Below, in pieces: positions 40,129 through 42,861 of a stretch of 42,861 bases of DNA. Both the position numbers and the translations under genes were made by a program. Source of the DNA: an uncultured Desulfosporosinus sp. (GTDB lineage Bacteria > Bacillota > Desulfitobacteriia > Desulfitobacteriales > Desulfitobacteriaceae); assembly GCA_927405585.1 (NCBI GenBank), contig CAKMJS010000056.1:1-42861 (forward strand), in the 5' to 3' direction. The notes below the pieces were generated by a model. The model was given only the letters and a program-made list of their open reading frames with translations. It searched no databases and had not been told where the DNA came from. How positions within the stretch are numbered: the first letter of the stretch is position 1; each line of letters begins with the position of its first letter.

Positions 40129-41010
40129 TTAATGCATCGCCTTTTCTGCAAATTCATGTAGTCCTTCCATGCCTATTCGGTCTATTAGACGTCCAATCCG
40201 TTCTTGGGGCTTTGCATTTTCTTTATAGTACGCAATAACTGCGTCCACCACTGGCATTATTTGCTCCTTCTGCAGGTTTTCAAGGAGGATACTCCCCTGC
40301 CTCGGCTTGACTCCACCATTTCCTCCAACATAAAGATGATAACCTTTACTTGTACCCATAAGCCCAAGGTCCACAGAGGCAGAGTCAGCACATTTATTTG
40401 GACAACCCGATACCCCCATTTTGAATTTCGAAGGTAAAGTCATTCCATGATAATGCTTGTCAATTTCCATGCCCAAAGCTAGCGTTTCTTGAAGTCCTCG
40501 CTTACAAAACGTATTGCCTGGACAAACTTTGACACTCCGCACACATAATCCTATCGCATGCCCAGGATCCATACCAAGGTCCTTCCAAACCTTTGGCACA
40601 TCTTCAGGGAGTAACCCAACAATAGCTATACGCTGTGCTGAGGTCACCTTGATTGCTTGGGCATGGTATTTTTCCGACACGTCTGCAATTTTACGTAATA
40701 TTTCAGGGGTAACGACGCCTGCTGGAATATGTGGGGCGATAGAATAAGTCTTCTTATCCATCTGTAAGATGCCACCAGCTGGTTGAGCCTTAGCTGCGGC
40801 CTCTGCAGAAAGCTCCCCTTGTTCTGCAGAATTCACCTTTTCTAATAATACATTTGGATCAAGTTTATGCATTTGCGCAGCGTTGGCTAACGTTTCATTG
40901 ACTGAAAACGCACATCCAAGGCAATGTAACCCTAGCTCTTGCATTGCTTCAGCAGTCTTTGGATTGGCTTCCATAACATCTTTTAATTTCATATCCAGAG
41001 TAAAACGCAT
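40129..41010 (-). CDS. DUF1858 - siroheme sulfite/nitrite reductase-type fusion protein
   Basis: A 293-residue protein. Residues 1-65 are a DUF1858 domain (redox disulfide type, GLHCLGC with C30 and C33). Residues about 85-290 are a single siroheme/4Fe-4S reductase module: C163 and C169 (CPGNTFC) and C203 and C207 (CPNKC) are the cluster and siroheme ligands. The single module resembles low-molecular-weight assimilatory-type sulfite reductases of anaerobes. The reaction, sulfite or nitrite to sulfide or ammonia, is inferred. The ATG at 41008-41010 is used, 6 bases after TAGGAG; an ATG two codons upstream has no gap to that site. It is coupled to the small zinc-ribbon gene, 9 bases above. Confidence 0.85.
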   Translation of the reverse strand: MRFTLDMKLKDVMEANPKTAEAMQELGLHCLGCAFSVNETLANAAQMHKLDPNVLLEKVNSAEQGELSAEAAAKAQPAGGILQMDKKTYSIAPHIPAGVVTPEILRKIADVSEKYHAQAIKVTSAQRIAIVGLLPEDVPKVWKDLGMDPGHAIGLCVRSVKVCPGNTFCKRGLQETLALGMEIDKHYHGMTLPSKFKMGVSGCPNKCADSASVDLGLMGTSKGYHLYVGGNGGVKPRQGSILLENLQKEQIMPVVDAVIAYYKENAKPQERIGRLIDRIGMEGLHEFAEKAMH

Positions 41011-41019
41011 ACTCATCTC

Positions 41020-41166
41020 CTAACCATGTATAAGCATTGGCAAACAATGCGTACATACATGTTTTTCTTCACCTTGATGGACATAAGTCAACACTGGGGT
41101 TAGTTCACTGGTTGTTCCACAATGAGCACACTCCAGTTCGGGAGCTACTTTCTTTACTTCTGTCAT
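41020..41166 (-). CDS. Small zinc-ribbon-like protein (48 aa)
   Basis: A 48-residue protein with two CxxC pairs (CAHC and CTHC) spaced about 26 residues apart, as in zinc ribbons or rubredoxin-like metal sites. ATG 41164-41166 follows AAGGAGGTCATTTTAA, a strong site. It is 9 bases above the DUF1858-siroheme gene, so the two form an operon. Metal delivery, electron transfer or regulation of that enzyme are all possible; no family is recognised. Confidence 0.75.
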   Translation of the reverse strand: MTEVKKVAPELECAHCGTTSELTPVLTYVHQGEEKHVCTHCLPMLIHG

Positions 41167-41468: not shown

Positions 41469-41915
41469 TTACAAAACATTATCTATCTGCTTCATTCTTA
41501 CAATACGCCAACCTTTTTCTGATTGTCTTAAATTGATGGAAAACGTTACAAACTTAATATCCTCAATGGGTGAAGTCCAATAAATCCGTACCACTACTCC
41601 TTGTGATATTTCCGAATCTGAATTCATAAACTCTAATTTCTGCAAAGTCAATAAAGGGTCTTGATTCAACCTTGTTTCCCATTCTCTGAATTCTTTTTCG
41701 TCTAGAGGACCCTCTGGCATTAATAAATCTAGGGCGAGGTTTGTCTGACGATGATCCATAAGTTGCCAGAAGTGTTGAATAGTTTTTTGGGGTGAATCTC
41801 CATAATGAGGATCCGCCAAAGCTGATATCACTGTTTGGGGCGTTTTAAAGGCGACGATAGTGACTAGACAGAAAAGTGATAGACCAAGGAACCATACATA
41901 ACGACTATAACGCAT
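41469..41915 (-). CDS. Exported or membrane-anchored hypothetical protein
   Basis: A 148-residue protein with an N-terminal signal or anchor helix (YVWFLGLSLFCLVTIVAF) and an outer alpha+beta domain (QKTIQHFWQLMDHRQTNLAL, then VVVRIYWTSPIEDIKFVTFS, GWRIVRMKQI). The layout resembles small NTF2-like/DUF4878-type exported proteins, but I cannot place it with confidence. ATG 41913-41915 follows CAAGGAGGGAAATT. Confidence 0.7.
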   Translation of the reverse strand: MRYSRYVWFLGLSLFCLVTIVAFKTPQTVISALADPHYGDSPQKTIQHFWQLMDHRQTNLALDLLMPEGPLDEKEFREWETRLNQDPLLTLQKLEFMNSDSEISQGVVVRIYWTSPIEDIKFVTFSINLRQSEKGWRIVRMKQIDNVL

Positions 41916-41976: not shown

Positions 41977-42042
41977 TTAACCAAAAACTTTTCTTAAAAC
42001 ATTAAGTACAAATTCAGGCAACCGAACGTAATAGATTCTCAT
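41977..42042 (-). CDS. spoVM: Stage V sporulation protein SpoVM
   Basis: A 21-residue peptide encoded behind a strong ribosome binding site (AAGGAGGGCGG, then TAATACT, then ATG at 42040-42042). It starts MRIYYVRLPEF and ends VLRKVFG. This follows the SpoVM pattern M-[KR]-[IF]-Y-x-[IV]-[KR]-L-P-x-F, including Pro9, the residue that lets B. subtilis SpoVM (26 residues, MKFYTIKLPKF) sit on curved membrane. SpoVM is an amphipathic helix that marks the forespore surface and anchors SpoIVA for coat assembly. Ours is shorter at the C-terminus. Confidence 0.82.
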   Translation of the reverse strand: MRIYYVRLPEFVLNVLRKVFG

Positions 42043-42121
42043 AGTATTACCGCCCTCCTTCATCTCAGATTTATTATACTTCCCTGTGGTAATGTATGCA
42101 GCCAAAACCATAAATGCCCAT

Positions 42122-42475
42122 TTATACCGTCTGGTAATTCTTTACTGCTTCCTCCAGTTGTGCACAAAGTAGACGTTCCTCTTCAGTATTTGCTGTGAAA
42201 TACAGTCGGCCAATGATACCTGTAATCACCTTGAGAACATCTTCCAGAACTAATGATTCTTTCATTGCTAATTGGGCACTCGTCTCGATTAAGGCAACTC
42301 CGAATTGATGACCAACTCCCTCCTTCACCATACGTGTACAAGTTTTTCCTAATAAACGCATAACTAAAGAGGCTTCCTGAACATCTAATTGGCGAATCAC
42401 TTCAATCGTTGTCGTTAAACCTTGTACGATACGCAATCCCACACTATTCCAGCTTACTTGTTGTTGATCCATCAT
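42122..42475 (-). CDS. Hypothetical protein, mostly helical
   Basis: A 117-residue protein with no signal peptide and no membrane helix, predicted almost all alpha-helical (for example VGLRIVQGLTTTIEVIRQLD and EERLLCAQLEEAVKNYQTV). No family is recognised. ATG at 42473-42475 follows GGGGGAAGTAT; a second ATG one codon on is possible. It lies 80 bases above spoVM on the same strand, so a role in sporulation can be guessed but is not shown. Confidence 0.65.
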   Translation of the reverse strand: MMDQQQVSWNSVGLRIVQGLTTTIEVIRQLDVQEASLVMRLLGKTCTRMVKEGVGHQFGVALIETSAQLAMKESLVLEDVLKVITGIIGRLYFTANTEEERLLCAQLEEAVKNYQTV

Positions 42476-42536
42476 ATACTTCCCCCTTAGAGATCACTTC
42501 CGTGCCATACTATATGCATCCTCCGCACCAAGGGTG

Positions 42537-42577
42537 AAAAAACGAGCAGTGAAGGTAAAATTACCTACTCTGCTCGT
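42537..42577 (-). terminator. Rho-independent terminator of a minus-strand unit from the right
   Basis: ACGAGCAG...CTGCTCGT with inner GGTA/TACC, followed by six T on the minus strand. It must serve transcripts entering from beyond 42577, yet no gene is seen in the last 280 bases of the window. Confidence 0.75.
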
Positions 42578-42707
42578 CGTGATCGTGGTTTGGTTCGTAT
42601 TTCGTATTTCTAATTTTGATATTTTAAAACTTACCCTGTGTTTTCTTAACCATAGAGTTATAGCTTTAATTATGATTGCTTCTACAAGGCATTATCCAAC
42701 ACCGTCA

Positions 42708-42861
42708 GCATCCATTCTTTAATGAATGCAAGAAAGAACCGTCCCCTTTCCCGTCGAATGTGCCGTCTCCGGTTCTCCGTCACCCGTTCCGTTTCCGTGA
42801 CCCGAGATGGGACGCAGTGTCACACGAGCGCGACGTCTCTACGAAAGCAGAACAGCAAACT
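42708..42861. repeat. GC-rich repeat-like segment with REP-style hairpin
   Basis: A small hairpin (GCAT, one-base bulge, CATT/AATG, ATGC at 42708-42729) is followed by AAGAACCGTCCCC and then about 130 GC-rich bases with seven CCGT words in 65 bases. The GGGGACGGTTCTT word and hairpin resemble repeats that accompany REP-associated (RAYT) transposases in some Firmicutes, from memory. No transposase frame is visible before the window ends. Confidence 0.45.

Follow-up and report, generated by a model that had tools for sequence, protein, structure and literature searches.

SpoVM in spore-forming bacteria

SpoVM, which has fewer than 30 residues, is the textbook case of a peptide that senses membrane curvature on the micron scale, and it has mostly been studied as the 26-residue form of Bacillus. 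The gene is usually found beside rpmB, an arrangement that is common but not universal. The five-residue C-terminal tail of the Bacillus peptide is, to our knowledge, not known to be essential. Pro9 is the sole residue reported to be invariant in SpoVM, and roles have been described for the basic residue 2, for the hydrophobic residue 6, which contacts SpoIVA and at which a mutation disrupts the binding of SpoIVA in B. subtilis, and for the hydrophobic residue 15 (PMC5607322). Transcription of spoVM in C. difficile depends on sigma-E (PMC5607322). Galperin et al. added 70 unannotated spoVM genes in 2012, and the article raises distant versions of SpoVM as a question for clostridia in which none had been detected (PMC3533761). 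SpoVM itself and the under-annotation of spoVM in clostridia are already known. A literature search returned no paper that joins SpoVM with Desulfosporosinus; SpoVM and Desulfitobacterium occurred together only in PMC3533761.

A 21-codon open reading frame in Desulfosporosinus

We identified a very probable spoVM homologue on the minus strand (42042..41977) of the window, a 42,861-nucleotide stretch of DNA from an uncultured Desulfosporosinus sp. The ORF consists of 21 codons followed by TAA (ATG AGA ATC TAT TAC GTT CGG TTG CCT GAA TTT GTA CTT AAT GTT TTA AGA AAA GTT TTT GGT TAA) and encodes the peptide MRIYYVRLPEFVLNVLRKVFG. A preliminary description of the locus had placed a 21-residue peptide with Tyr4, Leu8, Pro9 and Phe11 at 41977-42042, behind a strong ribosome binding site. 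The ORF is indeed in this interval, but the strand had been left unstated; the plus strand is not open there, and the ORF is complete on the minus strand only. All four residues are present in the peptide, and a strong Shine-Dalgarno sequence, AAGGAGGG (42060..42053, minus strand), lies 10 nt before the ATG. Its AGGAGG is retained in nearly all members of the genus.

The window's own reading frame is open for 33 codons 5' of this ATG, so that translation could formally begin at an upstream ATG and give 44 residues. We rejected this longer reading and assign the start to the 21-codon ATG, because in-frame stops occur zero or one codon upstream of it in several relatives and the Shine-Dalgarno sequence is conserved.

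Similarity to SpoVM models

The sole NCBIfam match of the window peptide is SpoVM_broad (NF033436), aligned 1-21 on 1-21 with an E-value of 0.0024 and 17.8 bits, which is below the NCBI curated cut-off of 31 bits, an annotation threshold and not a biological feature. Similarly, the sole match in the PDB is SpoVM (2mvh), again 1-21 on 1-21 and ungapped, with an E-value of 1.2. A search of the peptide against Pfam PF08183 gave no match. Each of the two matches is weak alone, as any match of 21 residues must be, but both point to the same family. None of 200,000 shuffled window peptides scored as high as the real one against B. subtilis SpoVM under BLOSUM62, and when B. subtilis SpoVM was shuffled instead, 1-2 of 20,000 sequences reached the score of real SpoVM against the clade profiles.

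When ten more distant relatives were scanned, SpoVM models were the top match in nine, with up to 22.7 bits and always below the cut-off, and Pfam SpoV was found for three of the ten. Over 60 relatives the Pfam SpoV model returned noise only, with nothing over its cut-off, and a clade profile (A1) was used in its place. The hydrophobic moment of residues 10-21 is 0.58, compared with 0.51 in B. subtilis; 7% of shuffles are as high for either peptide.

Conservation of the peptide

The 4.48-Mb genome contains seven matches to the DNA pattern RTGNNNNNNTAYN9YTNCCNNNNTT and six to the same pattern read backwards, which served as a control. The bare MxxYxxxLP motif is therefore not above chance and proves nothing alone.

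A 117-residue gene upstream of the ORF, which we call u117, is present in 53 of 60 related genomes. In all 53 a syntenic ORF of 21-24 codons with the sequence MxxYYxxLP is found shortly downstream of u117, behind a Shine-Dalgarno-like sequence. Named genomes with this pattern are those of Desulfosporosinus hippei, lacus, metallidurans, acididurans, nitroreducens and fructosivorans, as well as Paradesulfitobacterium and metagenome-assembled genomes of Peptococcaceae. Among the 27 peptides from Desulfosporosinus, 26 share one sequence and the remaining one carries V19F, although the coding sequences come in 25 different versions. The variable sites in these 27 genus members number 5/0/17 at codon positions 1, 2 and 3, and those at first positions are mostly synonymous changes in arginine and leucine codons. 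Because the peptides are nearly identical despite differing coding sequences, and because variation is distributed in this way over the codon positions, purifying selection acts on the peptide.

Beyond the genus the sequence changes, but M1, Y4, Y5, L8 and P9 are invariant in the alignment of the order. P9 is present in every homologue read, and K/R2, V/I/F/L6 and V/I/L/F15 are common. The homologues are 21-24 residues long in relatives and 21 in the window. The preliminary description had proposed a search of relatives for a conserved MxxYxxxLPxF peptide at the same spot, and had taken a lack of conservation to speak against the gene; both the syntenic peptides and their near identity within the genus favor it.

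A candidate sigma-E promoter

A sigma-E-like -10 element, CATACATT (42098..42091, minus strand), precedes the window gene, and CATACANT, the sigma-E -10 of B. subtilis, is found at the same place in loci of the genus. It occurs 51-64 nt before the ATG (about -55) in 23 of 27 genus loci, where 0.16 would be expected from shuffles; the loci are related sequences and the 23 cases are not independent events. Two of the four loci without CATACANT keep CATANNNT. The -10 block is distinct from its poorly conserved surroundings in the genus loci. There is also a weak -35-like element, GGCATTT (42112..42118, minus strand), separated from the -10 by a 13-nt spacer, which presumably resembles the sigma-E -35 consensus and is partly conserved only. 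The spoVM homologue may be expressed under sigma-E control in the mother cell.

Copy number, distribution and co-occurrence with SpoIVA

A search of the window's genome with the clade profile gave one match at E<=1, the window peptide. No SpoVM was visible when the rpmB locus of this genome was inspected, and a second SpoVM at that place was rejected. The concern, voiced in the preliminary description, that a better SpoVM might exist elsewhere in the genome is thus not borne out by either search.

For the wider distribution we used a profile built from 18 clade peptides, with a threshold of E about 1e-3 or better. As read from the match table, 73 of the 82 genomes of the class have the peptide, as do 77 of the 398 in a phylum sample. 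SpoIVA is present in 76 of these 77, where 65 would be expected given that 336 of the 398 genomes carry it (P 9e-6, with relatedness ignored); the sole exception, G309, is 75% complete. Many SpoIVA-bearing genomes of the phylum sample give no peptide match, as expected because the profile is tuned to one clade. Three genomes of the order have SpoIVA and no peptide (G009, G016 and G029, 79-91% complete), and in G054, which has the peptide, SpoIVA was looked for and not found.

One genus of the order (g15, five genomes) is without spoVM, and u117 and SpoIVA are absent from it where tested, while Spo0A scores over its cut-off in four of the five genomes. It is possible that endospore formation has been lost in this genus.

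Gene neighborhood

The gene order in the window's family is pssA, u117, spoVM and d148, with a sulfite-reductase-like gene and spo0A nearby. The genes that precede spoVM in other classes are dinG, psd-pssA or a PlsY-like gene, and at five loci there spoVM is adjoined by a divergently oriented TIGR04086 membrane protein. With the rpmB of the window's genome as query, rpmB was found near spoVM in none of 20 loci examined.

Throughout the order spoVM is constantly accompanied by the upstream gene u117 (42122..42475, minus strand), which has 78% mean column identity over 27 sequences. Its predicted fold is a five-helix bundle (AlphaFold2 pLDDT 90) with no convincing structural match in the PDB, and the protein bears a faint resemblance to DAK2/DhaL. 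The downstream gene d148 (41469..41915, minus strand) encodes 148 residues with an N-terminal membrane anchor and an NTF2-like domain; it evolves fast and is kept at the same spot in most of the order. Both neighbors had been suggested to act in sporulation. For u117 such a role is plausible, because its presence and absence track those of spoVM across 60 relatives, although simple linkage could also explain the co-occurrence. Nothing among the evidence examined links d148, a fast-evolving, membrane-anchored protein, to sporulation.

The window's contig (C56) ends 386 bases upstream of u117 (42476-42861), and pssA is found at the start of another contig of the same genome (C135, 224-757), facing outward. 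The usual order of pssA and u117 would fit a contig break between the two, and the assembly is probably interrupted upstream of u117 by a repeat or an insertion. Other features of the window are a 17-nt inverted repeat at 42542-42577, a 295-residue protein in which a DUF1858 domain is fused to a nitrite/sulfite-reductase-like half protein (40129-41016, minus strand) and, beside the latter, a 48-residue CxxC zinc-ribbon-like ORF (41020-41166).

Identity and function

We consider it very probable that the ORF is spoVM, a real short homologue of 21-24 residues in a pssA-linked neighborhood, whose function we infer. This identification, which agrees with the first impression that the peptide fits SpoVM, is based on the ungapped 1-21 alignment, on SpoVM models ranking as the sole or the top family match, on the co-occurrence with SpoIVA and on the conserved sigma-E-like promoter. 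Counted against it are the score below the cut-off, the missing PF08183 match, identity at 7 of 21 residues, the absence of residues 22-26 and of the Gly13-Gly14 pair, the lack of rpmB adjacency, a hydrophobic moment of residues 10-21 that is not significant for a single sequence, and the G054 genome. Given a score below the curated cut-off, the gene should be named a SpoVM homologue until tested.

A genuine SpoVM orthologue could still be largely dispensable, as in C. difficile (PMC5607322; PMC9542656), with the pair of SipL and SpoIVA anchoring the coat. This is a sub-case of the spoVM reading and does not compete with it; we regard it as a serious possibility, though not as the expected case, and the near-absolute conservation of the peptide in the genus argues that its loss has a real cost. 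A less favored explanation is that the ORF encodes a conserved amphipathic sporulation micro-peptide with neither the descent nor the function of SpoVM, such as a small pssA regulator, whose resemblance to SpoVM is convergent. In several classes the gene is linked to pssA, psd or a PlsY-like gene, which would suit this explanation, as would a length of 21 and not 26 residues and a score below the curated SpoVM cut-off. However, the window peptide matches no other family, its distant relatives score higher on the SpoVM models than it does itself, the anchoring positions K/R2, Y4, L8 and P9 coincide without a gap, and the searches of the genome turned up no other SpoVM, so we think convergence improbable. 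That the ORF is a leader or intergenic stretch resembling SpoVM by chance can be dismissed, for although the motif alone is no rarer than chance in the genome, amino acids are conserved under synonymous drift in 27 species with no variable second codon position, and homologues occur across the class and beyond.

The gene is single-copy and coding, is under purifying selection, is homologous to spoVM, has a conserved sigma-E-like -10 and tracks SpoIVA. The spoVM reading can be set out along the model of SpoVM and SpoIVA given in reviews (PMC12004969, PMC9542656). The mother cell would produce the 21-residue amphipathic peptide under sigma-E control. Its N-terminus (MRIYYVRL) is basic and aromatic; after it and a kink at Pro9 would come a short amphipathic helix (residues 10-21), which would lie in the outer forespore membrane and prefer its convex surface. 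There the peptide would anchor the SpoIVA scaffold, with the hydrophobic residue 6 as the contact as in B. subtilis, and this anchoring would start coat assembly. Membrane binding, curvature preference, SpoIVA binding and timing are in this model drawn from work on B. subtilis and C. difficile. In this model 21 residues would suffice to sense curvature. As the reading frame naturally ends after residue 21, the window lineage seems able to do without the Bacillus tail, although the cognate SpoIVA may have co-adapted.

Automatic annotation probably misses this 21-codon gene. Since SpoVM models are the top match in nine of ten distant relatives and all scores are below the cut-off, curated models detect the family yet would not name it; a cut-off adjusted to the 26-residue form is the probable reason why annotation models overlook the clade. 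We lean towards the view, if only somewhat, that in a whole lineage of spore formers a tailless SpoVM of 21-24 residues, linked to pssA and not to rpmB and escaping annotation models, does the full job. If this is true, residues 1-21 are the minimum that nature uses to sense curvature and to anchor SpoIVA, while the tail of the Bacillus form is an add-on. A natural and strongly conserved 21-residue form is a ready-made test of which part of SpoVM is needed.

Comparison with known SpoVM peptides

The locus bears on the gap noted in 2012, when SpoVM had not been found in some clostridia and distant versions were suspected (PMC3533761); members of the window clade, or 21-residue forms, may already be among the clostridial SpoVM set of that study. 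The SpoVM of C. difficile is likewise a homologue in an anaerobe, with sigma-E transcription there and a sigma-E-like -10 in the window (PMC5607322). It is encoded near rpmB, whereas the order in the window clade is pssA, u117 and spoVM; this comparison is by published description (PMC5607322).

The closest comparison is with B. subtilis SpoVM (26 residues; PDB 2MVH; NF033436, NF011327, PF08183), also the product of a tiny sporulation-linked gene. The neighborhoods of the two genes differ, and the window peptide remains below the curated cut-offs. As the preliminary description had observed, the window peptide is the shorter; its stop codon follows residue 21, so that it is without residues 22-26 (SFRKD), and it does not have the Gly13-Gly14 pair. 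It has Tyr5 where B. subtilis SpoVM has Thr, and Glu10 where B. subtilis has Lys. Over the 21 residues, which align without a gap, only seven are identical. The positions in common are the start, the basic residue 2, Tyr4, a hydrophobic residue 6, which is conservatively hydrophobic in the window peptide, the basic residue 7, Leu8, Pro9 and Phe11, together with hydrophobic residues at 12, 15, 16, 19 and 20, the basic residue 17 and Gly21.
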